A DNA stretch of 64,000 bases from Cyathus striatus (taxonomy: Eukaryota > Basidiomycota > Agaricomycetes > Agaricales > Nidulariaceae): contig JAOVFP010000023.1 in the NCBI GenBank assembly GCA_025738555.1, positions 186,001 through 250,000 of the forward strand. Direction: 5' to 3'. This document shows, piece after piece, positions 11,109 through 25,903 of this stretch. The first letter of the stretch is position 1. Each line of letters begins with the position of its first letter. Position numbers and translations under genes: made by a program. The notes beneath the pieces were generated by a model, which did no database searches, was not told where the DNA came from, and saw only the letters and a program-made list of their open reading frames with translations.

Positions 11109-11114
11109 CTTATA
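11109..11114. repeat. Left target-site duplication CTTATA
   Basis: CTTATA directly precedes the left terminal repeat and recurs directly after the right one (25898-25903). If the repeat is taken two bases shorter on the right, the duplication can be read as the 8-mer TACTTATA (11107-11114 and 25896-25903). Confidence 0.75.
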
Positions 11115-11140
11115 TATGGAAGGCCGGACTATCACGCTAC
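11115..11140 (+). repeat. Left terminal inverted repeat
   Basis: TAT plus GGAAGGCCGGACTATCACGC and three more matching bases. It matches the reverse complement of 25872-25897 with one mismatch at the ninth base after TAT. Confidence 0.92.
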
Positions 11141-11141
11141 G

Positions 11142-11157
11142 TCGGCCATCAAGCCGA
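11142..11157. repeat. Left subterminal hairpin
   Basis: TCGGC-CATCAA-GCCGA, a 5-bp stem with a 6-base loop, begins two bases inside the left repeat. A similar stem occurs at the right end (25835-25850). CCATCAAGCC is repeated at about 11180. Such sites often serve as transposase binding sites, which is inference here. Confidence 0.6.
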
Positions 11158-11263
11158 TGTGATTTGAGGTTAGGCGACCATCAAGCCCCCGTAACCCTTT
11201 CTATACCAGATGCAGACAATTAAGAAATTATATGTTGTAGTGATATCTAATCTATAGTCCAAT

Positions 11264-12473
11264 CTAACATTCCATTTTTTGATATTTCCCAATCCCAGTA
11301 TTAAAGTAGCTATTTAATGCATGATGGGATCGCTTTGAAGCTGCACTGTCTTCTCCAAAGTATTCAGCATCACCTTTCATACCATGCTCAGTGAATCTAA
11401 AGATAGCTGCTGCTGCGAATTGCGTAAAGGAGAACCTCTTTTCACTTCCAGAAATTGGAAGGTTGCTATGTGTGATAATTGCAGATGGGATCAGAATAGT
11501 GTAACCTGGAGGGAATTCAATGGCAAGCATAAATTCATGGAGGACCAAATGCCCCCCAGCAGCCCAATCATAATTCCCCAGCGCAGTGATTGCGCACCAG
11601 CCAAAGGATAGATTTTTGACATCACGATGGCAGCTGCAAATAGTCCTGGGCCCAAAGTTGACAGTTAAGGCTGGGTAAAAGCTTTTTGAAAAGGGGTAGC
11701 AAAGGCTACTCTCTTTGTGCTTTTGTAGCGCAGATAAATGCAGCTGAGTGTAGCTGCACACTTTTGGATTCCATTTTTTGTATGAGCCTAAGTATAAGAT
11801 CCTTATTATTTCCCAATACGCTGAATGACTTGAAGCCATCACTCACACCACTGAAGCTCAGCAAGCTTTTGAAACTCACTATCTTCTGTTACCTTCAGCA
11901 GCACAGATGCAGTCACCCTGTCAGCGTTAAAGTTAAGTGGCTCTGTCCGGCCTTGTCCATGAGAGAAGCCAATAGTTCCAAAGGAGAACTCTCCACGAGC
12001 AAGGTGCTGATGCATCCTGTCAGGAAGCTCCTTCTGCCAAATTTCCAATTTGCCAGCCATTAGTTGTGAAGAAGGTTGAGCACTGTTAGAAGCAGGTATT
12101 ATAACACCTACAATGCGACGCTTGGAATCAACAATAGGGGAGTCACGCCTAATAGAGAAGGGCTAAGAAAGGAGCAAGAGTCCAAGCTGCTAATTAAAAC
12201 ACACACAGCAGAGGGTCAGGTTTAACAATTCTATAGCCCTTCAGCTTCACAGCATCCAAAGTTATAGGTAAGCTGCTCAAGTAAACCTTATCGGAGAGTC
12301 GTGCTTCAAATCCAGGTATGGTAACATTTTCACTGGTGCTCTCAATATCATACTTGATGCGGATGTGGCGCGTAGGGAGCTGTGCTTTCAGATGCAAAGG
12401 CAGCTTTTGGTGATAGGGAGGCTAGTTAACTTATTAAAGGTTGTATACATTGAATAAATAGCAATCTTACCAT
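11264..12473 (-). CDS. TET/JBP-like 2-oxoglutarate/Fe(II) dioxygenase
   Basis: The catalytic exon has the double-stranded beta-helix signature of the fungal TET/JBP-like family. VNFGPRTICSCHRDVKNLSF gives the HxD iron ligands (HRD near 11619-11627). It continues GWCAITALGNYDWAAGGHLV and LAIEFPPGYTILIPSAIITH, where THSN holds the distal His. KRFSFTQFAAAAIFRFTEHG follows, its Arg being the 2OG-binding candidate. Upstream exons supply DSKRRIVGVIIPASNSA and a FSFGTIGFSHGQGRTEP region, as in relatives. The ATG at 12473-12471 is followed directly by a GTAAGA donor, so the start codon is alone on its exon; this is plausible but unproved. TET/JBP enzymes oxidise 5-methylcytosine or thymine in DNA; for this protein that is inferred. 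Length is about 310 residues. It lies at the left end of the element and reads outward. Confidence 0.75.
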
Positions 12474-12684
12474 TAGAAAACTGCAACAAGCTTCAGGGAG
12501 CAGCAGTTGGTTGATGAATTGGCAGCAATGGATAACTTGTTGAGCGTTATAATCTTCGCGACCAAGGTCATGTGAGCGCGTCATCGCCGTTCTGCATCTC
12601 TTCAACTTTCAAGCTCAAGCCTGCGACTCCCTCCGCCTCCACCTCACCCTGCGCCAAGCCCGCTCTACTCCTCAGCCACCGAGC

Positions 12685-12809
12685 TCTCTTTTTTAACCCA
12701 GCGGCCGAGCGACTTGACGAAATCAACACGGACGCAAACGTCGCGAGGATAATTGGCGGAAGGCAACAGATAGAGGAGAGAGGCGGCGAGGTAGAGATAT
12801 CGTGAGTAC
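12685..12809 (+). repeat. Duplicated exon-like cassette, copy 1
   Basis: Encodes LDEINTDANVARIIGGRQQI then EERGGEVEIS, followed by a GTGAGTAC donor-like sequence. Copy 2 at 14279-14414 has diverged in DNA but keeps the peptide pattern LDEI-x3-AN-x-ARI-x-GGRQQIEE and the same donor. No family recognised. Confidence 0.65.
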
Positions 12810-13398
12810 GCCTTCTGACTTCGGATTGCATTGCAATTCTACTGAAGTGTACTCTACAGGTAGTCTAGAAGGGGGAAAATTCAACGCAGGGCGCTTCTGC
12901 AAGTCAAAAAATCTTCGAGACGAGCCGCCCCCTCCGCTACATCGTCGCGATGAGGACATCCAGCCCCTTCCTCCGCTATCTCGCCTCCACAGCCACCCCT
13001 CCTCCCTTAGTGTCGACCTCCCTCTTCCCCTCCTGTGACACGAAGGCAGCGACGCAAGCTGGCAATAGTGGCGTCGATGCCAGGGCGCCCAGTCCATTCC
13101 TTCACCACCTCGTCTTCACATCCGCCATTCGCGCCCACTCCCTCTCATCCACAACAACGATGGCGCTTCCTCCTGCGCCGTGTTGGAAGTCGGACCGTTT
13201 CGGCGCTGCTTCGTTGCTTCGGTTCTCTTGCTCTCTTCTCTCTGGTCTGCCTTCTCGCCTCCAATCGTGCACTCGAGCTTTGCACAGCTCCTCCGCAACC
13301 CAAACTAAAGGTGCTGTCCCCTCTCTACCCCTCAATTGTCCGCAGATGCACTGACACACCACCCCCCAGTGTGCGATCCCCGCTTCCAGAGCATACTC

Positions 13399-13920
13399 CG
13401 ACGCCGGCACCTCCTCCCTTAGGCGACGACGCTGCTAGCATGAGCAGCGTCTGCATGAAGTCGCTCACCCACCTCCCTCCTCGCTCCTCTCCTCATCCCT
13501 GCGCAACGAAGACGTACCTCCTCCCCTAAGCGACGACACTGCTGGCATGAGCAGCGTCTGCGTCTGCGTCGCGCCAACCGCCCGCCTCCTTGCTCCTCCC
13601 CTCATCCCTGCGCCATGCACACAACGACAACGACGCCGGCACCTCCTCCCTTAGGCGACGACGCTGCTGGCATGAGTAGCGTCTGCATGAAGCCACACGC
13701 CCACTCCCCTCCTCGCTCCTCCCCCCATCCCTGCGCCATGAAGACGCCTGCGCCTCTCCACCCAAGCAACCCCCTCCTCCCCTCCTCCCCTCCTCCCCTC
13801 CTTGCTCCTTCCCCCGTGCGTCGCAACGACGCCGGCACCTCCTCCCTTAGGCGACGATACTGCTGGTACGAGCAGCGTCTGCGTGAAGCCACCAACCCAC
13901 CCCCTCCTCGCTCCAAGATG
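13399..13920 (+). repeat. About 115-bp minisatellite, about four units
   Basis: Units begin GACGCCGGCACCTCCTCCCT (about 13399, 13631 and 13829; a more diverged unit at about 13516). They contain GACGACGCTGCTGGCATGAG and run through AGCGTCTGCATGAAGCC to a CTCCTC-rich tail. A CCCTCCT homocopy run sits near 13770-13800. Open frames here are products of the repeat. Confidence 0.8.
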
Positions 13921-14113
13921 CGCATCCATCAAAACGGTACTCGCTGTTGTACTCTCAGGTTTTTTGATACAAACCGCTCTAGGACAGACATCTAACGCGG
14001 TATGCTTGCCTTACTATCAATGGGTAAGTTTTATTCAATTTATGCTTTAAAATGTTTAACCGTGCTCTCATCCCTAGGCTTTCAATACCCAGGCTCTAAT
14101 TGCGGGCCTCGAC

Positions 14114-14152
14114 GTCACGAGGGAATTTGTAGAAAACAAATTCCCTCGTGAC
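14114..14152. repeat. 39-bp palindrome A
   Basis: GTCACGAGGGAATTTG, a 7-base TAGAAAA spacer, then the exact reverse complement of the 16-base arm. Same orientation as copy C. Confidence 0.95.
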
Positions 14153-14213
14153 CTGCATTGTGCGCGCTAACGATTTCGAAAGCGCGCTAAACTCTAATTA
14201 TATAATCATTAAA

Positions 14214-14252
14214 GTCACGAGGGAATTTGTTTTCTACAAATTCCCTCGTGAC
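14214..14252. repeat. 39-bp palindrome B (inverted)
   Basis: Exact reverse complement of palindrome A (spacer TTTTCTA). A and B face each other across 61 bp that itself holds an inverted GCGCGCTAA motif, so 14114-14252 could be a 139-bp miniature inverted-repeat unit. Confidence 0.95.
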
Positions 14253-14278
14253 TCCTTGCTTCCTCCCCTTGCCCAGAC

Positions 14279-14414
14279 CTCTTTTTCTTGCCCAGCGGCC
14301 TAGCGCTGCTTGACGAAATTACCATGGGCGCAAACGCAGCAAGGATACTTGGAGGAAGGCAACAGATAGAGGAGAAGGCAGTCATAGGTAGTGGGACAGA
14401 GATAACGTGAGTAC
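14279..14414 (+). repeat. Duplicated exon-like cassette, copy 2
   Basis: Encodes LLDEITMGANAARILGGRQQ then IEEKAVIGSGTEIT and ends in GTGAGTAC. See copy 1 at 12685-12809. Copy 2 lies just downstream of palindrome B. Confidence 0.65.
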
Positions 14415-14749
14415 AACTCCTGACTTCTCCTTGCGTTATAGCTCTACTAAAATATGTTGCAGGGTGTTCTGTGGCCGTCTGGGATTCAAACTATCTTCCA
14501 GACAAGCCGCCCTCCTCTAAGTCGTCAGGAAGAAGATGACGCTCCGCTTCAATGACCCAGTGCCGCCTACACCTAGTAGACGGCACATACTGCTGGCCCA
14601 CCACCCTCCACCGTGCTCTATTACCCAGAGCGCTGGCTCCCTCTCGCCCTCCTCCCAGTCCCTTATGCCAACGACCCCCTTCACCCCAACAGCGGCGTTG
14701 GTATCATGATCTAGGTCACACAGCGTCCCTGCTTCTCGACTCCACAATC

Positions 14750-15480
14750 ACCACTCGCGCCCACTCCTTGTCCACATCAAAGACGAAGGCGCATCGTCCA
14801 CTCCCTTCCTCCCTGCGCCTGGATGTCGACGACGACGCTGGCATGTGGCGTCGGCGTCCACATCAACAACGACGGCGCACCATCCACCCCCTTTCCTCCC
14901 TGCGCCTGGATGAAGGTGACGATGCTGACATGCGGCGTCGGCATCCACATTAGCGAGGAAGGCGCATCATCCACCTCCTTCCCCCCTGTGCCTCAGTGTC
15001 GGCGTCCACGTCAACGACGACGGTGCACCACCCACCCCCTTCCTCCCTGTGTCTGGATGAAGACGACGATGCTGACATGCGGCGTCGGCATCCGCATCAA
15101 CAACGAAGGTGCATCATCCACCCCCTTCCTCCCTGCATCTCAGCGTCGGCGTCCACATCAATGGCGGCGGCACACCATCCACCCCCTTCCTGCGTCTGGA
15201 TGATGGCGGCGGCGCATTGTCCACCTCCGTCCTCCCTTTGCCTCGGCGTCAGCGTCCATATCAATGACAATGACACGCCGTTCACCCCCTTCCTCCCTGC
15301 GCCTGGATGACGACGACGCTGGCATGTGGCGTCAGCGCCACGTCATCTATCCCCCCTCCTCCCTCAGCGCATGCCACAACTCCACAATCACCGCTCGCGC
15401 CCCACCCTTCTCGTCCGCATCAATGACGACGGCGCATCATCCAACCCCTTCCTCCATGCGTCTGTACGATCACGCCACCT
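14750..15480 (+). repeat. Mosaic GC-rich tandem array
   Basis: At least seven units of alternating about 60 and about 87 bp, each marked by CCACCCCCTTCCTCCCTG-like and GGCGTCGGCGTCCACATCAA-like blocks. The open frames on both strands reflect the repeat rather than a gene. Confidence 0.75.
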
Positions 15481-15778
15481 AGCCCCCTCCTTCCTCAGCG
15501 TCGCCTGGACGCCTCTCCCACAGCTGCAACCTTTTCCTCAGCAGTAACTCGCCCGCTACTGCCTTCCTTTCTTCCCAAGCGGCGCCGCTACTGTTTTTCC
15601 CCACTGCAATGGCACCATCGCTGTGCCGTTCAGCCATTCGTTTTGCATTGGTATTGGTAGCTTATTATATTAGTATAGCTAAATCATACGTTAGAGCTGT
15701 AATAATATAAAATTTTATTGTTAAAAGTTCAATTTGTGAGTCTAAGTGTGAGGGGCCACTGAGGGCTGCAAGCGACAG

Positions 15779-15817
15779 GTCACGAGGGAATTTGTAGAAA
15801 ACAAATTCCCTCGTGAC
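15779..15817. repeat. 39-bp palindrome C
   Basis: Identical to palindrome A including the spacer, and also followed by CTGCA. It lies about 60 bp upstream of the JmjC gene start. Confidence 0.95.
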
Positions 15818-15879
15818 CTGCAAATAGCACACGTAGGCCTCATTTTATCCCTCCTTCCTCTTTCAACTCACTGCTAAAA

Positions 15880-18800
15880 ATGGCGCATTCTTCAACTCTT
15901 CGTTGCTTGATTCCACTTTCGACATCAGTGCTTATACAAAAGCAACCAATTTATAAGCAACTTCCTAGCGGCAGCATATATCTGGTATTCCTTATTCAAT
16001 TCCATCTTAGAAGCAAGCTTACTCTTCTCAGCCTCTGTTTATGCAGCTTCATAACTTTGATGAAGGAATTAAAACCATGGGAGGCTGGACTATTTATAAG
16101 CCTTCTGACATTCTTCTTGATGAAGGTGCTGAATGCATGCCTAAGACTGTCCTGCTCAGAGGTGCAACTGGCAAGCTGCCTAGCTTGCTAATGGAGAACC
16201 TTTGCAACTACATAGCTGCATGCAGGGCTACAGATACAATTTTCAGGTTAAAAGGAGTTGCCTCAATTCAAATGGAGGAGGTGCTATGCCACAAGAACCA
16301 GAAAGTCTGGGTGGGACAGCAAAATGTGAGCAAGCTGTTGTCGCTTCATCTCTAGCACCTAACCCTACTTTTACACAGAATTTGGAGGCGCTCTCCAACC
16401 TTCAAGATACACTTGTTGCATTTGTATCTGATGGGGACTACGTTGTCCAGCTCATCAGCAACAGGCTCATTTCAAAGGAGCCTGATGTATCTGTAAGGCT
16501 AGCGAATGAAATTGCTGAAATGAAGGGAGGAAAGAAAGCTCTAACCATAGTTAAAAACTTGGCTAGCGTAGCATTTTGCTTTGCAGTGATGATAAAGGTG
16601 CTTTTCCTGAAGAGCCTGCTTTGCTTTATTTTCTTAGCTAGCCTTTTTTAGGGAGAGGGGTGTTTGCAAGTCCCAGAAAGCTGCACAGACCTTGGGCTTT
16701 CAGAAGACCTAGAGGTAACAGAGGCTGTTGATCAATTGTTCCACAATCCCCAAAGATTAAAGAACTTGAACTCTCTGCTCTCCAACTTCAAAGAATTAAG
16801 GCACTCCCTGCAGCTTGTTGCCCTTATTTCCCCCCTTCTTGCCATTGTTCCCAAGGAGCTGATCAAGACACGCATTTGCTATGAGGAGCTAGTATTAGTA
16901 AGCTATTTGGCTATACCTATTTATTTACTGAATCCTAAGGCTTACCTCAGAATATGAAGCTTATTGGGAACCAGCAGCCTCCTTTGGTTAAAACCCTAGA
17001 AGATGGTGTCTGGTTAAGCATTTTGGGTATAGTTGAAGGAACCAGCACTGCATTCAGTGCATTTCTAGATCTTCACACCAAGTGGAAAGGCTACATTCAG
17101 AGCAATTCTTTGGATGAAAGCCAGGTAGAATATTTTGCTAAGAGTAAGCAGCTTTCTTATCAACCACTTCCCTGCTCATTGAGGCTATTTTAGAAAGCAT
17201 GTTTAAATTTGGTGCTTCTATATTTATCTTATCAATCCTTTTCTCACTTATTGAGGCTCTTTTAGAATATAATGAGGATAAATATGGCACCTCTATGTCT
17301 ATATTCACTGCATACGTGGACTTGCCAGCTCCCACCAACTGGCCTCTACCTGCAGCAGCAGCTGAGCACTTATCAGCTGGCTGGGGTAAATCCAAACCCA
17401 GAGGTGCTCCTAGTGAGAGCTCAGCAGCTGTCAAAGCACCAGCTCCAAAAGCTCCTCAGAGACAATCAGAGAGAGTTCAAAGAAGAGCGCCCCAACCTCC
17501 CAAAGCTACTGTGGCTTCAAAAGCAAATTACAGCTCAAGAAAGTCAAAGGTAAAGCTCAGACTCAATGCCAACAAGCCAAAGAGAGCTGCACCTTCTCTG
17601 GGGCAAGATGACCTGGAGTTCCAGCCAGAGGAGTTTCTCACATACTCTGACCTTCTATCTAAGAATGCTCTTGAGCGCCAGAAGATTTATGATGAATTTG
17701 CAACTATGTTAGAGACTTTGAAGGTGGCGCCTTGCTTTTATGCATTTCTTATAACCCTTATAACCTAACGCTTGCTTTAGAATCAAGAATCCTTTGAAGA
17801 AAAACCAACTTTGACCTTAGAGCTTCTGGCTGAGGTAAGCTTTCTTTACAGCAAGCAACTTGTGAACTAAATCATTTTGCCATTGGTTTAGAAGTACTCA
17901 GATTCTCAGAATGATAAGTTGGTCCTGTGGAGTGCTAGTGGAAGCTCTGATTGCTACAAGCTGTCTTGCCATGTAGGCTTCTTGCTTTACCTATATCTCA
18001 AGCTTTCATTCAATTCTTATCCTATCCTCTTAGACCAAAGAGGATCACAAATCTTGGTTGCTGATGTACCGGTCAGCGATTAAAATTTATTCTGACGTTA
18101 AAGGAAGCGGCATTTATAGACCACTTTTTGTGGACAATCCTTCTAACTCCCTGCTACGTCATGTTCTATGGAATGATTTTGACAACATGTCCACTCAGGA
18201 GGTGCAGGCTATGCTGCAGACTCAGAATATTGTGATTGAGGGCAGTAAAGAGAAGAAGGTACAATTTGATGAAGCTGGTCTAGAATCTCTAGGATGGGAT
18301 CTAAATGACCCTGTTGACATTCATGGTGTGTGGAATACCTAGTAGTGCTATAGCCTGCTGAAATTTAACAGACCAGTCAATTGAGGTTTCTGAAGATGAT
18401 GGAGATTTTCAAGAACGCGTTGTGACTGGCTCGCTAATGGACCTATTAAAGTCATCAGCTGCTCTTCCAGGCAAGAAGAAAAGCCTGAATGGCCTTTCCT
18501 TTCCTGCACCTCATGCAGCAGTGGAGGCAAGTTCATATGCCAGCGATGTTCGTGCAGCTACTAGAACCAAATGGGAGACTTACTGCATTCGCAACATGCC
18601 CACTGCAGATATTCGGTTTGGTCTAGCAGCCACTGAAGGAGCGAGCCATTTTTGGCATATAGATAGCCGAGGAGATGGAACTATGGTTCGTGTAGCCGCC
18701 GGCTTAAAGCTTTGGGCTGTTGCAGAGCCCTATGACCCAGATGTTCTCTCATCCACTACTGTTTGGACTGATCCAAACTTTGGAGTTAGATACCTTGACC

Positions 18801-20062
18801 CCTCCAAGTGGAAGATTGAGATGGTAGTTTTGAAACCAGGCGACACTCTGTAAGTTTCTTAAGGAATGGAAGTTATTCATAATGCTCAATTTTGTCTAGC
18901 CTTATGAGGCCCTGTACTCCACATGCTGTGTACACCTTAGATGACGCCATCTGCCATGGTGGACATTATATACCTATATCCTGCATTTCAAGAGTTATAT
19001 GTGGATCTATTCACAGCTTCTTTGCTGGATACGTTATTACCAATGCAGATAACCCTTCCTTTCAATCTAGAATGAACTTAATAGCTTGCTTTCTGTACAA
19101 AACTTTAGGGAGCGGTAATATCCAAGCCCAAGGTGAGAATCCACAATTCAGGCCCTGAGATGCTAACTTATTTGCCTTAAAGACAAAGGCCACCTTCTGA
19201 ATATTGAAACAGAGTCTGGACTCAAAGATCTCATGTTCTTTGCATGCTATATAGAGCTTCAGAATGCTCTTTGCACTTCAAGCTACCTCCCTACAAACGA
19301 TCAGGTTCTCATTGACAAACTTTTGTCTAACGGATTAGGGTCTGGAGATGAATCTCCTGAAGATGAGGCGCTAATGAGGCACGATATATCCCTAATGGCC
19401 CATGATTTGCGGATGCAAAACATATGTAGCAGAAGCCGGATGGAAATTCTTCTTCATAAAGTCTCCAAAAGATTTTCAATTATTTTGGAGGGTGAAGCTG
19501 AAGCTCGGGACCCATGGAACACTCTTTTCATACCTATGCTTGCCTGGCTAATCCACTCCCTTAATTTCTACCATCTTGGTTCTTTAGATCTAAGAGAGTC
19601 TGGCATTGTTGGGAATAGGTTCGCAACTCTCTTTGAACGCCAACTGGAATGGACGTCAGAGCGCTGGCCTGAGCTTGAAGCTGAGCTGGAACGCATGCAA
19701 AGAAAGGGCATAGTAGCTCAAAATTTGATGTGGAGTGCACCAAAGTTTGAGGTACTTTTGAATGCCCAAAATATGGGTCCTAATCAAGGTACCTTCTTTC
19801 TCAATTCCTTTTGCTCTGCATTAATATATATATATATTTTTAAGATTCTGTTAAAGAAATTGGGGAAGAGCCTTTAGATCTTTATCGACATGGGAGGAGG
19901 GCTGGTGATTTGCTCTACCTATCAGTATATACTGCAAAGCTATCTAAGCGCTGCTCTCCTAATGAAATTCCTTCACAGCAAGGTAAGCAAGCTTTAAACC
20001 TTACCAATGCTAATTAAATTAATCTTCATTCAGAGTCTGCAAAGCGCTCCAGGCAAAGTTGA
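15880..20062 (+). CDS. JmjC-domain protein carried by the element
   Basis: A large multi-exon protein of about 1,150 residues. The C-terminal third holds a JmjC-type cupin: ASHFWHIDSRGDGTMVRVAA has the HxD iron ligands (His codon 18656, Asp codon 18662). It is followed by GLKLWAVAEP, a VVLKPGDTLLMRPCTPHAVY segment with the distal His at 18922, and DAICHGGHYI. JmjC proteins are Fe(II)/2OG oxygenases, usually histone demethylases or hydroxylases; the substrate here is unknown. Upstream are a leucine-rich N-terminal region and a basic stretch RQSERVQRRAPQPPK...SRKSKVKLRLN that could bind nucleic acid. The end is SAKRSRQS. I could splice all junctions in frame except one near 16330. It ends 50 bp from the convergent integrase-like gene. 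Confidence 0.75.
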
Positions 20063-20111
20063 TAATTTGTACTAGATAGATAAAGTAAAGATACACGTTT
20101 ACTATCTAATG

Positions 20112-21927
20112 CTAATTAGTGGAAAGAAAAAGAGGCTGAGGATTCCAATCTTGAGTCGCATCTCCCTCGTCATCTGTGAAATCTACTGAGATAATATTAT
20201 CGCTACCACCGGTTGGATCAAAGTCATCAAAATCATCATCATTATTAACCTGCTGTAAAAGACTTTGATCTGCATTCTCTTCATGAGCTACTGATGCAGG
20301 ATAGGTAATCCATTCTTGAATGGTTTCAGGAGCAAAGCAGTTATGGCTACGCATATCAATCAAATGCTCCAGTATGCTTCTATACACCTCCCAAACATTT
20401 GAACGAGTTATAGGAGGCCTTCCAACTGAGAGGTATGCCTCTGATATATGGGGCTCAAATGTAGCTGGCACCAATGCCATAACTGGGTGGTCTTCAGGCA
20501 CCAATAAGGCTCGCACCTCTGCAACTCCTTCTGGGTCAGGTATAATCTAGCAATAGAAGGGGTTAGCTCTTTATTGAATAGGACACGCCTGCCCACTGAA
20601 TAGCTTACTCCATAGTCTCTTGCATCAAAATTTTCAGGCCTGTTCCAGATATCAGAAGGTCGGCCATGCGGAGTAAGCTTATGCTTGTTTTTTCTCTTTA
20701 ATTTATTATTTACCCTATCTCGATAACCATCCAGCTCCCTCTGCAGCCAAGGTATAAATACCCATTGAAAGACAAGGCTAGAATATATAAGATTAGATGC
20801 ATCGCCCAAGGTAAATTTTAATGCTTACCAATGCAGATAGTCATTGGTGTTGTAGAGTGCAGGGTGATCTTCTTGCTCTTCTATTCCATAGCATAAGATT
20901 TCCTCAAATCCTGGAGTAAATCTCCTCCGAAGCTGGCTCCATTCAATTTCTGGCTTGATGTTTGTCTTCTTGCGCTTCCAAAGGTGTTGAATGCTATCTT
21001 CTGGAAGGGAAGGGTCATGCCAGCGTCGCAAAAAGGTATTGGCTTGAGCTATTCGCACATTTTCAGTTCCAGGATCACTTTGAGTAAGCAAGGGCATCTC
21101 TATAACTCCATGTAAGCTTAGGCCACGCTTCTGCCTTGCTAAATTTTATGCTTACTCTTAAACTCCTCTACCGCAGATAGATAGTAGTGGCAGGTTAATC
21201 TTGGATTGGAGTTGTTCCACCAAATTCGCAGCCATAGAATATAACCTGCAAATGGATCAACCCCAACATGAAGGCAGAGCCCAAAGCGCGGCTTCCATTT
21301 GTCATGCTGGTCAAAGCACCAAAGATTATTTGGGCCTGCAGACCAGAACTGCTTTCTAAGAAGGTTCCTTGCCTTTCTTGCTGCTATGAGCTCAGGCTCA
21401 AATCTAAAGAAGTATTCTGTTATAACATTGCTAGAAACGTATTACTATAAGAAGCCCAAGCAAGCTACAGTTTATGCTTACCGTGATACCTTCTCCTTGT
21501 ACTCTTGGAAGAATAGGCTTCCCATTTCATCTCGACCAGCATTGGGATACATTCTCCTCAGCTCTACCATCCTAGCTAGAATTGTATCGCTAGTGTTGCC
21601 TTGCTGTCTTACCCCAAGAAGGCCCATATCCTTCCTCATTTTTCTATACTTTGTAAATCTAGAAAGCATTAGATTTCAGAGCATAAAAGTAAATATTAAG
21701 ACTTACCCGAGAGAATATCTTGCAATGTCTACATGCTCATCCCTCACAGTCTTCCAGATATCTACATCTGACTTTTTCTGGTACCAGTATTTTACAATAT
21801 ATGGCGCAACTAGCTCTTGTGGGACTTTTAGTATCAAGTGAGTCAGGAATATCCTTTACATATTAGATTCACAACACTCACCTAGCGGATTATACTGGTT
21901 TCTACCTCCACCTCTCTCTGCAGGCAT
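20112..21927 (-). CDS. DDE integrase-like protein, candidate transposase
   Basis: Six introns can be removed with no stop codons to give about 510 residues from MPAERGGGRNQYNPL to PLFLSTN. The core resembles a retroviral-integrase (rve) fold. NNLWCFDQHDKWKPRFGLCL carries the first Asp (codon 21310-21312). LLTQSDPGTENVRIAQANTF carries the second (about 21060-21080). TNIKPEIEWSQLRRRFTPGF carries the Glu (about 20940), about 42 residues later. The tail VFIPWLQRELDGYRDRVNN plus HKLTPHGRPSDIW is typical of a family of integrase-like proteins scattered in mushroom genomes. The C-terminus is acidic (NNDDDFDDFDP). As the only recombinase-like gene between the repeats, it is the probable transposase; this is inference. 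Confidence 0.75.
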
Positions 21928-22167
21928 GTTTGAGCTTAGAAGATAAAGTTGAATTTTTGATGCGACTTGCACTGCATCCAAACCTTAATATCCCTAAAGA
22001 AAATCTTAAAACGAATGTAATTGGTTTTGTTTTGTTCCATTAGCTTCTCTATTTTTCTCTTACTCTTATCGACGAAACATAAATCTTTCTATTCCTCAGC
22101 TTATTTCCCTCAATAACTCCAACTTATTTTACCATTGCTTTTCACTACGCTATCAATTACATTTCAT

Positions 22168-25100
22168 ATGCCTGAGTCTGATATTCCACTGGCTAGTTTT
22201 ACTGGTGATAATCCACCCCCCACTATCTGTGAAAAAAAAGATTGCCAGAATGCAATTCCAGCTGATAAGCTGGCCATTTTTTGCCTTAGAAAGAAAGGGG
22301 ATCCTTCAGGAAGAATCATACACTTATGTGAGGGCTGCTACTTTCATTATTCCAACAAACCAAGCACAGTGCAGCCCTCCAGCCACAGCGCCAGTAAGTA
22401 GAGCTCTTTAGACTTGTTTCACTCATAGGAGCTATTAACTGTGCTTTACAGGTAATGCATTCTCACATAGTTCTGAGGCTACAGGGAGATTAGTGCAGCC
22501 TATACTTAATCTCCCTCATCAAAGCTCTGCTAAAATAGGTCAGCAACTTTCCTATTTAGTTACAATCTTATGGCATAGTGATTTACATTCTTTTAGCCTC
22601 CCACGCACTTGCTTCTAGCCATCATTCATCAAGAAGTATAAACCTTCAAAGTATCAAACAAAATACACTTGCAGCACAGCGACCTGGTGCGTTTAAGCCT
22701 GCTCTTATTTTTCTGCTTGAGCTCATTTAAGATATATAAAGACCTAGGGTACAAGCCACCCAGCGTATTATCTTTGCCCAAGCAACCAGTTGGAAGGCCT
22801 ATGCCTTTGTCTGCTGCTCATCAGAGCCCCTACTCAGCTTCTGGCCTTTCTATGGGCCCTCCTGGGATTGCCTCAATGGGAAGGCCAGTGATTAATACCC
22901 CTTCCTATGGGTATAACTCCAACCACCAGCATTACTATGATGACCGCAAGCGTTGGGCAGCTGGAAATCCATCTAGACAAGGCTCTGTAACAGCAGAGGA
23001 GAAGTACAAATTTCCTGTTACTGTATCATTTGCCTATAATCTTCAAAAGCCAGAGCGAGGAAAGCGGTATGGGGACCTTTTGGTGAGGTTTTCATTCTGA
23101 ATTTGGTTTAAATATCTAATAGCACCCTTATAGAACGTTGCTGAAACCGTATACTTTGCAGCCAATTCCTCAGGGGAGGAAATTGCCTCTGTTGCAAGGC
23201 AAACTATTAAAGATGCTATTCAGAAGCGCCCTGATTTGATAACCTTCAGTTGGGATTTTGATGCAGCTTATGTACGAGATTTGAAATGGACCAACCTAGA
23301 ATCAGATGAGGCAGTCGCTAGATCTGGAGGCTACTTTTATAATGAAGTTATGGCTGAGCCAGCAGCTGCAGCAGTTAAGGCTGCTGCAAAGCGGGGTAAC
23401 ATTAGGGCGAAGGCTACCTTCAAACCGCCTAAAAACCCCTTCCAGGTACTGGTTATCGTATCATACAGTGAGTATGAGAAGTGGGATGGCATAATGAATC
23501 AGGATGATCAGGTTAGTCACTGGAGCTGTTAACTTTTATAGCCATTCTTTGCTAACTATCCTTTAAGTATGAGATGGATGCCGTTAGCTTTGGTTCCACT
23601 TTTACTTCAGTAAAGCAAAAGGGCAAAGGGAAAAGACCTAGAGCGGCAAGTCCATTCTACACCCCTACTGAGTGAGAAACAGTATTCACAACTTATAACT
23701 TAGGACTCTTATACTGCTGATGCTGCCCAAAATAAGAAAACTGGAAGCTCAAAGAAAGAGCTAAAGAGCGCAGCTATAGTTATTTCTGATTCCAGCGAGG
23801 GAGAAGAAATAGAGGTAACTGAATTGCCAACTATCAAGGTATATTTAACTATGCCCCTATTATGACAAGCTTATAACAAGTTCTTCAGGAGCTAGCTTCA
23901 AATGAGCTGCAGGAATCTGAGAGGGATAAGGAAGAAAATGAAATGGCTTTAGAGATTTCCAAGGCAAATAGATCTTTCATTGTTAAGCTAGCTCTAATAT
24001 CATTTCTTCTATGTTCAGGGACTAGTTCAAAGCTCTAGAAGACTAGATCAAGATCAAGAAAAGGGAGATGAGCATCTTCAGCAGCTCAAGCCCAGTATGC
24101 TACCAGAAGTGGTTAAGCTATTTGGATTCCCAAACAACATTTTAGTCTCAAATCGCTCACCAAGAAGGCCAAAGCTCAAGGCTTCAAACAAGGGCTTTGC
24201 CAGAAACGTAGAGCCCCCCTCAAGCCCCCCAAACCCAAACTCAGCTAGCTGCTTCCCTACTAGTTCAAATTTTTCAAGCAACGAGCTGAAAGATGCACTT
24301 AAGTCTGGAGGAAGGGACTCGATCTCAAGATCTGACATACTAGCTTGTAAGAAGCCTTCCATACCTTTGTGATAAAGTTCTGAATCCAGTTACTTAGTCC
24401 ACCAGAAGCAGGAAATCGTATCTCTTTATCACATTGAGTCCAAGTCATTGGAAGAACTGGTTGAACTGGCCAAACTTGGACAAGGGTCGCTGCTTAGTGC
24501 ATGGGCTAAGAAATGCTCTTCTGAGACAGCTAGGCTAAGCGTGTCCTCAAAGGATGGAAAAAAAGGTAGCTTTAAGATCTCCAATCCTGTCAACTCTCTG
24601 GAAATGTTTGGACACACGCCCGCCGCTGGCTTGCCTGAGGGCCACATCTGTCACTATGATCTAGTGGCAAAAAGGCCATATGATTCTGCATTCCCAAACA
24701 AGACGCCTAGGCTCTCAGGCAGTGCAGAGCTTGAGTTCCTTTTGAAAGAGGGAAATATATTGATGTGGGCGGGAGCATTGCTTGATGCTACATACCAGTG
24801 GGTAGACTCTCAACTTTCTGAGAGAAAAGCAACTGCTCTTCCCTTCGCCATCCCCCGGTTGCGCTTTGCAAAGGCTGCTATTGCTACCTCAACAGCTACC
24901 ATAAGCAAGCCTTCTGGATCTTCTGGTACTCACACCATGGCATCAGCAGTGGTCTCTGCTTACCTACTGGAAGAAAAGATTGAAGGCGTATTTGTTAAAT
25001 TTCTTCACAATGCGCATGCAGGACTACCAGAGAAATGGTCTGAAAAGGATCATGGAGATTTCTATAGAACCGCTGAATTCCTTGCCTTTTCACAGCACGT

Positions 25101-25434
25101 GCAGTACATGCTTACTGGATGCTTAGCCTATATATCTGACTACCAGGGTGAGTTTTAAAGCGCCTTTGGTGAAAAAAATTCTTATTCTTCTGCAGGAAGC
25201 TGTACAATTTTAACAGACCCACAGATTATGACTTCTCCTGAGTGCGCTGTTTTGTAAACTTTAATCCATCCCACTATGGTCTACTAATGCTTTTATTTGG
25301 CTAGGGAGTTCACTGGTACTCTATTTGGTGGAGGAAACCTTGCAGAAGGATTCAGGGCCTTTCCAAAGCAACACCCATGCAATAAATATTGCATCTGGTT
25401 CCGCCTCCCTTCAATTTTCCCTACAGAGGAATAA
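22168..25434 (+). CDS. Alpha-type protein kinase with N-terminal zinc-binding cluster
   Basis: About 870 residues after splicing. The N-terminus has a cysteine cluster: CEKKDCQNAI, a later single Cys in AIFCLRKKG, then HLCEGCYFHY, likely a small zinc-binding domain. A middle domain includes VSFAYNLQKPERGKRYGD, DLITFSWDFDAAYVRDLKW and VLVIVSYSEYEKWDGIMNQD, which I do not recognise. The C-terminal third is an alpha-kinase: AYLLEEKIEGVFVKFLHN, TAEFLAFSQHVQYMLTG, AYISDYQGSCTILTDPQI, GTLFGGGNLAEGFRAF and HPCNKYCIWFRL. This matches the FxAFxHxxY, DxQG, LTDPxI and zinc-ligand HxCNxxC pattern of the family. Key residues look intact. Alpha-kinases are expanded in mushroom genomes; a link to transposition or host signalling is speculative. 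Confidence 0.8.
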
Positions 25435-25871
25435 ACTGCTACTGCCCAAGGTCCACTTTCACCTAAGCCCTCTTCTTTCTTTTCTTTCTTTCAAGCCTTT
25501 GACTTTGCAGAGCACCCAGTGCACTGCAATGTACCCTTTCAACTTTCTATTATTATTGCTGTAGTAGTTGTATATGCTATCTACTCAATATTCACTTAAT
25601 GTTAAAGGCACCTCCCTTAAATTGATAACAGGAAGCTATCTCTAGTCAGAACTTAGAAGTGCATTGAGAGCCAGCACGACCAGCTCAGGGTTAATCATCT
25701 GCCAGGTTGATTAGATCCATGAAGCTTGATTAGATGTGTATGCTTTCTGCTTCCCTGGCGGCTAAAAGAGAAGCAAAAATATTTATTTCTTGTTTTCCAT
25801 ATTTGGGCTGTGCATAGTTTTTGGGGTCCCATACTCGGCATGTGTGCCGATGCTGATCCAATCAAAAAAAG
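25435..25871. other. Right subterminal noncoding region of the element
   Basis: AT-rich tail between the kinase stop and the right inverted repeat. No gene seen. It holds the hairpin at 25835-25850. Confidence 0.6.
25835..25850. repeat. Right subterminal hairpin
   Basis: TCGGCA-TGTG-TGCCGA, a 6-bp stem sharing the TCGGC/GCCGA core with the left-end hairpin at 11142-11157. It lies 21 bp inside the right inverted repeat. Confidence 0.6.
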
Positions 25872-25897
25872 GTAGCGTGATAGTCTGGCCTTCCATA
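25872..25897 (-). repeat. Right terminal inverted repeat
   Basis: On the minus strand it reads TAT plus GGAAGGCCAGACTATCACGC, matching the left repeat with one mismatch. It is followed by the CTTATA duplication at 25898-25903. Confidence 0.92.
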
Positions 25898-25903
25898 CTT
25901 ATA
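25898..25903. repeat. Right target-site duplication CTTATA
   Basis: Identical to 11109-11114. Confidence 0.75.

Follow-up and report, generated by a model that had tools for sequence, protein, structure and literature searches.

Structure of the element and its copies

The window analysed here is a stretch of 64,000 nucleotides of Cyathus striatus DNA (C23:186001-250000), and the genome searches covered the 107-Mb assembly with its 24 contigs (named in the style C1-C24). Analysis of the window revealed that the segment 11115-25897 is a DNA transposon with exact borders, which carries four multi-exon genes: a TET-fold dioxygenase-like gene (G1), a JmjC gene (G2), a DDE transposase gene (G3) and an alpha-kinase gene (G4). 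Among the matches listed for its proteins, the named homologues come from Agaricomycetes. The features, including terminal inverted repeats (TIRs) and target-site duplications (TSDs), are as follows:

11109..11114, no strand: left TSD CTTATA (from the sequence; single copy at the empty site on C24)
11115..11140, plus strand: left TIR, TATGGAAGGCCGGACTATCACGCTAC (inverted-repeat comparison, pattern searches and shuffles)
11264..12584, minus strand: G1, predicted TET/JBP-fold 2OG-Fe(II) (2-oxoglutarate- and iron-dependent) dioxygenase-like gene, 4 exons, 390 amino acids, H270xD272, H323, R334
12600..15640, no strand: spacer between the divergently oriented G1 and G2, rich in G+C and filled with repeats
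16041..20063, plus strand: G2, predicted JmjC (KDM2/KDM7-like) gene, 13 exons, about 1126 amino acids, H728xD730 and His800
20112..21927, minus strand: G3, DDE transposase, PF24764 (rva_4), 7 exons, 491 amino acids, candidate triad D149/D209/E251
22168..25434, plus strand: G4, alpha-kinase (PF02816) with a Cys-rich N-terminus, 12 exons, 879 amino acids
25872..25897, minus strand: right TIR (inverted-repeat comparison and pattern searches)
25898..25903, no strand: right TSD CTTATA (sequence, copy comparison and empty site)

The two 26-bp inverted repeats (11115-11140 and 25872-25897) are 96% complementary, with one mismatch. The 23-bp core of the TIR, allowing up to three mismatches, had no match in 100 shuffles of the window and 15 matches in the whole genome, against none for the reversed-pattern control; these two results rule out chance inverted repeats. 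A broader end pattern gave 16 genome matches (control 1). Seven copies with both ends were recovered, three long (14.8-14.9 kb) and four shorter:

Window copy: 14,783 bp, TSD CTTATA
C10b, at C10:2594749: 14,905 bp, TSD GAAGAG
C16:1986026: 14,903 bp, TSD AGAAAG
C5: 7892 bp, TSD GTTATA
C4: 3827 bp, TSD AAAGCG
C12: 4384 bp, TSD CAAAAC
C13: 4434 bp, TSD ATTCTC

All seven have a perfect 6-bp TSD immediately flanking TATGG..CCATA. An original prediction, made from the sequence of the window, had placed a 14.8-kb element at these same coordinates, with 26-bp ends bearing one mismatch, and the copy family matches those ends. Its expectation that further copies would share ends and TSD length was likewise borne out; of the two TSD lengths it offered, the 6 bp stood and the 8 bp is ruled out, since 6 bp fits every copy without mismatch. 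Related elements on C9 and C18 were found by a scan that demanded a 6-bp match and are therefore no independent proof of TSD length.

The copies C10b and C16 share 99.7% identity across 14.9 kb yet have unlike TSDs, and thus represent separate, recent insertions. An eighth copy, C10a, which is distinct from C10b on the same contig, showed approximately 97% identity over 10.8 kb, with only its right end recovered. The four short copies have little in common with the window element except the termini; the three shortest look non-autonomous, since the longest stop-to-stop open reading frame (ORF) in element plus flanks has 132 codons. The short-type copy on C5 (C5:2975833-2983718, L015) contains an extra 4.1-kb stretch with a series of unassigned ORFs.

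Gene models and selection

Splice models were predicted from the window and compared with the three other long copies (C10a, C10b and C16). All four models are open in the window copy, in agreement with the original prediction of four multi-exon genes without in-frame stops, and the one junction it had left unresolved, in the JmjC gene, was settled by the other copies: G2 starts at 16041 and has GT-AG borders at 12 of 12 introns. A 72-bp tandem duplication at exon 4/5 leaves some uncertainty in the G2 model; it lies at 17155-17267, spans an intron-exon border and is absent from C10b and C16. In G4, the uncertain points are one GC-AG intron (23964-24018; GT in C10b) and the junction 23672-23747. 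The same four genes, which had been expected in other copies, are present in C10b and C16, while C10a keeps G2 to G4 and G1 was not found in it.

The ratios of nonsynonymous to synonymous substitution rates (dN/dS) between the window and C10b, with upper bootstrap bounds in brackets, were 0.13 (0.19) for G1, 0.29 (0.35) for G2, with 0.16 in its JmjC half, 0.14 (0.21) for G3 and 0.29 (0.40) for G4. Sequence comparison thus indicates that the four open genes are under purifying selection. Synonymous divergence between the window and C10a was 0.098 in G2, 0 in the neighbouring G3 and 0.0085 in G4; given this unevenness the copies look like mosaics or recombinants, and a single dN/dS per pair is a simplification.

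The spacer between G1 and G2 gave no Pfam match among the seven spacer ORFs scanned. It contains three times a perfect 39-bp palindrome (14114-14152, 14214-14252 and 15779-15817); the genome has only seven matches to this palindrome at up to three mismatches, and six of the seven fall within the window element or at the C10a copy.

The vehicle is probably an IS3EU-type transposon

The G3 product matched the integrase core PF24764 (E 2e-13), and its D149, D209 and E251 are kept in 96-100% of 109 homologues; the G4 product matched the alpha-kinase domain PF02816 (E 3e-13). Elements of the IS3EU superfamily are described in the available text of PMC10045372 as having TA..TA termini and usually a 6-bp TSD, and the TET-bearing fungal ones, in that of Kojima (2025, PMC12730594), as having a 6-bp TSD, TAYGG..CCRTA ends and a transposase opposite an alpha-kinase. 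The window element has these hallmarks: the 6-bp TSD and TATGG..CCATA ends in 7/7 copies, an IS3/IS481-like DDE transposase, and G3 (minus) and G4 (plus) in opposite orientation. By these hallmarks it appears to fit the IS3EU superfamily.

The genome-wide distribution of the two genes agrees with this placement. Counting one entry per locus and dropping extra exon matches, at least 43 kinase loci and at least 43 transposase loci were found; 33 of the 43 kinase loci have a transposase locus no more than 12 kb away, where about 1% of kinases would be expected by chance, and all 33 pairs are divergent. Two of the paired loci were examined and proved to be elements of 7328 and 9075 bp with related TIRs, a transposase and a kinase, and no match to G1 or G2. 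The related TIR pattern, at up to two mismatches, has 783 matches genome-wide (387 + 396; control 0). The pairing of 33/43 kinase loci suggests that the alpha-kinase is standard IS3EU equipment, so the idea that it is special cargo was rejected.

Pfam searches of the products of G1 to G4 and of 10 other ORFs of the element, a subset of those present, gave no match to a KDZ (Kyakuja-Dileera-Zisupton) transposase, a DNA polymerase B or a capsid protein; seven of the 10 came from the sole spacer big enough for a polymerase gene. The KDZ transposase domain PF18758 was likewise not seen at C23:197-212k among the matches listed, and the TSD is 6 bp, not 7-8. The original prediction had described a true DNA transposon with a single rve-like DDE recombinase, two Fe/2OG-type dioxygenases and an alpha-kinase, lacking a KDZ transposase and a DNA polymerase B, and in these respects it holds within the ORFs scanned. 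Its view of the element as a vehicle different from KDZ is right as to the recombinase, although the vehicle is of a recognisable kind, with IS3EU hallmarks; its emphasis on the kinase as notable cargo has to be given up, since the available text of PMC12730594 and the paired loci both make it a regular IS3EU partner.

Taken together, the window element is probably an intact-looking, recently mobile DNA transposon of IS3EU type. Several observations weigh against this. The placement is by hallmarks; 10 of the 43 kinase loci and 10 of the 43 transposase loci have no partner. The dN/dS of 0.29 for G2 and G4 is only moderate, the other three long copies have frame-breaking exon length differences, and C10a has one in-frame stop in G3 and one in G4, either of which may reflect decay or assembly error.

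An empty site on a collinear contig

The flanks of the seven insertions were joined with one TSD each and searched against the genome, very common words being skipped. The joined flanks of the window element had a 402-bp match of 100% identity at C24:1285586-1285987, which crosses the junction and contains a single CTTATA, so that the empty site which had been proposed as a check exists and is precise. Around it the contigs C23 and C24 are collinear: identity is 99.88% across 4290 bp on the left, and on the right 99.7% across 615 bp and 98.6% across 2724 bp. At a distance of 18-19 kb, a gene with domains of a mitochondrial DNA polymerase recurs on C24 at 99% identity. This collinearity indicates that C24 represents either another haplotype or a duplicated stretch of chromosome. 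The window element was inserted on C23 after the separation of C23 and C24, or it was precisely lost from C24, which is less likely because one TSD is present at the empty site. The joined C13 flanks also matched C13 at 91-95% in three places that are uninterrupted, and more weakly at other places, and those of C5 matched one uninterrupted site at 75%; in the same search those of C10b, C16, C4 and C12 matched only their own flanks.

G1 resembles TET dioxygenases and G2 resembles JmjC demethylases

The G1 product shows the HxD..H..R pattern of the TET/JBP-type 2OG-Fe double-stranded beta-helix (H270, D272, H323, R334). Among 55 homologues the H, D and H ligands are invariant and the R is present in at least 90%. 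The predicted fold is nearest to TET structures, and among its matches DNA base dioxygenases lead by a wide margin; it is the fold of a homologue that aligns with 82% of G1 at 35% identity, rather than of G1 itself. The TET/JBP domain PF12851 matched 16 of the 55 homologues at E <= 0.1 (best 2.2e-05), under Pfam's cut-off; in a whole-genome search it was silent for this genome and for 14 controls, and hence uninformative.

For G2, the family profile matched ceKDM7A (E 2.1e-11), and a Foldseek search with homologue P0241 gave a match at E 3.7e-07. G2 is 86% identical to a JmjC protein recorded from C. striatus. The predicted protein is like the demethylases KDM7, PHF8 and KDM2A in having a JmjC core with an HxD and a later His, and unlike them it has long unassigned N- and C-terminal parts and no Pfam-detected reader domain, since neither a PHD nor a CXXC domain was matched in G2 or in homologues P0241 and P0242.

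Against reading the two genes as erasers stand the following points. G1 has no Pfam match, and the TET protein of Coprinopsis cinerea (CcTET) was not matched by sequence, either with G1 or with its family profile; searches of solved structures by sequence with G1, the profile and homologue P0219 gave no relevant match. G1 and CcTET share 14% identity, and at two specificity positions of CcTET, Gly331 and Asp337, G1 has Asn and Cys by ungapped counting from the HxD. The G2 sequence alone falls under every Pfam cut-off (best JmjC_2, E 0.25), and its assignment relies on the family profile together with a model of poor overall quality (mean pLDDT, the predicted local distance difference test, 49.9). 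At the genome level, only four of the 43 transposase loci have the G1-G2 cassette or part of it, so IS3EU mobility in itself does not depend on the cassette.

The Asn and Cys bear directly on a possible, if somewhat unlikely, alternative: that G1 is a TET-fold enzyme acting on another substrate (e.g., N6-methyladenine (6mA), RNA or protein), so that only G2, or neither gene, is anti-silencing. Neither position varies in the alignment of 55 members; Asp337 of CcTET is given as essential for activity on 5-methylcytosine (5mC), and CcTET itself is active on both 5mC and 6mA (PMC12730594, available text and section 3.4). The wide margin by which DNA base dioxygenases lead the fold matches argues against this alternative.

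The G1-G2 pair occurs in a KDZ-type element

The only other relatives of G1 found in the genome are on C3 and C5, each in a unit with a relative of G2. These units lie in a larger element, found at two places:

C3:4784917-4816149: KDZ-type element, 31,233 bp, TSD AAAGATGT twice, ends CACC..GGTG
C5:2598786-2634087: KDZ-type element, 35,302 bp, TSD ACAAGAGC twice, ends CACC..GGTG

Both copies (loci L023, L024 and L029-L037) have sharp borders and an 8-bp TSD. In the compared parts, which exclude C5:2611500-2617999, they are 98.6-98.9% identical, the C5 copy being about 4.2 kb longer between two matching parts. At 7 kb from the C3 unit there is a KDZ transposase, matched by PF18758 at E 1.5e-28. 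The sharp borders and 8-bp TSDs at two places indicate that the KDZ-type element, with its IS3EU-derived TET+JmjC segment, has transposed, and TSD length and content suggest that the KDZ transposase moved it. Beside the G1 relative on C5 a 3249-bp insertion is nested (C5:2619703-2622951, L024:1704-4952), with termini TATGGAGGCACTC and a 6-bp TSD, CTATAG; it has identical, mirror-oriented ORFs at its two ends, forming a large inverted repeat.

The window matched C3 at 11175-12475 (77%) and at 15853-20093 (79.6%). Between C3 and the window dN/dS was 0.26 for G1 and 0.26 for G2; of the two C3 relatives, that of G1 has a single in-frame stop at an aligned codon and that of G2 has none. That G1 and G2 are passenger cargo, host-beneficial or neutral, with no part in silencing escape, is a view that we consider unlikely. 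It draws support from the small number of transposase loci with G1 and/or G2 relatives, four of 43 by comparison of hit lists, and from JmjC relatives outside both elements (C16:1260-1264k, C16:1291-1295k, C18:804142-807873 and C9:640-644k; 31-65% identity per piece). The C18 relative has no element ends of the two scanned types within 15 kb, so the JmjC family is not exclusively transposon-borne. The passenger view is opposed by the constraint on both genes within a multi-copy mobile family, by their relocation as a pair, and by the loose first-pass search in which 18 of 18 G1-relative matches lay inside copies of the window element or the KDZ-type element (C3, C5).

The direction of the transfer is suggested by remnants. 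Immediately after G2, the C3 copy has a 63-bp stretch matching the 3' end of the IS3EU transposase gene G3 at 90% (E 2.5e-18), in the same position as in the window element; on the opposite side, a 23-bp match (91%, E 0.007, weak alone) begins inside the IS3EU left TIR. The pair thus appears to act as a cassette that was captured, together with the transposase 3' end, by the KDZ-type element, and the contrast with KDZ vehicles is accordingly less sharp. Since the direction is inferred from remnants alone, the pair might instead have moved from the KDZ-type element into IS3EU, or both might have acquired it from a third element; in view of the two remnants, this is distinctly unlikely. That the window element is a stripped Polinton/Maverick with its polymerase and capsid genes lost can hardly be right: a 6-bp TSD and an rve-like integrase are common to Polintons (PMC10045372, available text), but the TATGG..CCATA ends, TIRs of only 26 bp, like ends and a kinase partner at dozens of loci, and the lack of any Polinton gene in the four products and 10 further ORFs scanned all disfavour it.

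Proposed function of the cassette

From family knowledge, the IS3/IS481-like transposase G3 would excise the element at its TATGG ends and insert it at a 6-bp staggered cut, and the alpha-kinase G4 would assist or regulate this step. The TET-fold G1 might oxidise methylated bases on the element's DNA and the KDM2/7-like G2 might remove repressive histone lysine methylation, and together they could reopen silenced copies long enough for G3 to be expressed, in line with the suggestion of the original prediction that such cargo could let the element control its own silencing. In Agaricus bisporus, CG methylation is nearly confined to transposons, so erasers would be useful to a transposon; transposon-borne TET is thought to aid escape from methylation-based silencing, though not experimentally validated (both from the available text of PMC12730594).

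It is likely that G1 and G2, with their putative enzyme activities, constitute a transferable anti-silencing module. The fuller reading we consider evenly balanced: a two-layer eraser cassette, acting on DNA and histone methylation, selected for anti-silencing and passed between unrelated superfamilies, first in IS3EU and then in a KDZ-type element of 31 kb, which later transposed. That the pair entered the KDZ-type element suggests that anti-silencing functions can be exchanged between superfamilies as multi-gene units. With a putative DNA-mark eraser and a putative histone-mark eraser on one element, near-identical recent copies, an occupied site on C23 and an empty one on C24, the genome offers a natural system for testing anti-silencing: methylation and histone marks can be compared between C23 and C24, and, within one genome, between IS3EU families with and without the cassette.

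Comparison with known elements

TET genes in IS3EU elements, and alpha-kinases with them, are known from rust fungi and Tuber indicum (Kojima, 2025; PMC12730594, available text). The window element shares with these families the 6-bp TSD, the TAYGG..CCRTA ends, the transposase opposite an alpha-kinase and a TET/JBP-type gene; unlike them, it has an agaricomycete host, the TET-like gene at the far end instead of between transposase and kinase, and an added JmjC gene, and unlike the rust families, with TIRs above 30 bp, it has 26-bp TIRs. With IS3EU/GingerRoot in general, as far as PMC10045372 is available, it shares by hallmarks the TA..TA termini, the 6-bp TSD and the IS3/IS481-like DDE transposase, and differs in its two-dioxygenase cargo. 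Styx of Zymoseptoria (PMC10853768) is likewise a fungal four-gene element with an IS3EU-like transposase and a 6-bp TSD; it measures 7.9 kb, half of its four coding sequences are said to be restricted to the genus, and the available text mentions neither TET nor JmjC.

The TET-bearing KDZ elements (Kyakuja and Zisupton; PMC12730594, available text) are like the window element in placing a TET-fold gene in a mushroom DNA transposon, while in transposase, ends and TSD length (7 or 8 bp) they show no relation to it. The TET-bearing groups given for Agaricomycotina in the main text of PMC12730594 are Kyakuja, Zisupton, EnSpm, Plavaka and Helitron2, with no agaricomycete IS3EU TET family among them, although its Supplementary Table S1 might still list one. 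A transposon-borne JmjC gene was not reported in the titles and abstract openings among the matches listed, and no literature linking Kyakuja-Dileera-Zisupton with JmjC was found. As far as these searches go, three features of the C. striatus element are new: an agaricomycete IS3EU transposon bearing a TET-like gene, a transposon-borne JmjC partner, and the joint move of the pair into another superfamily.

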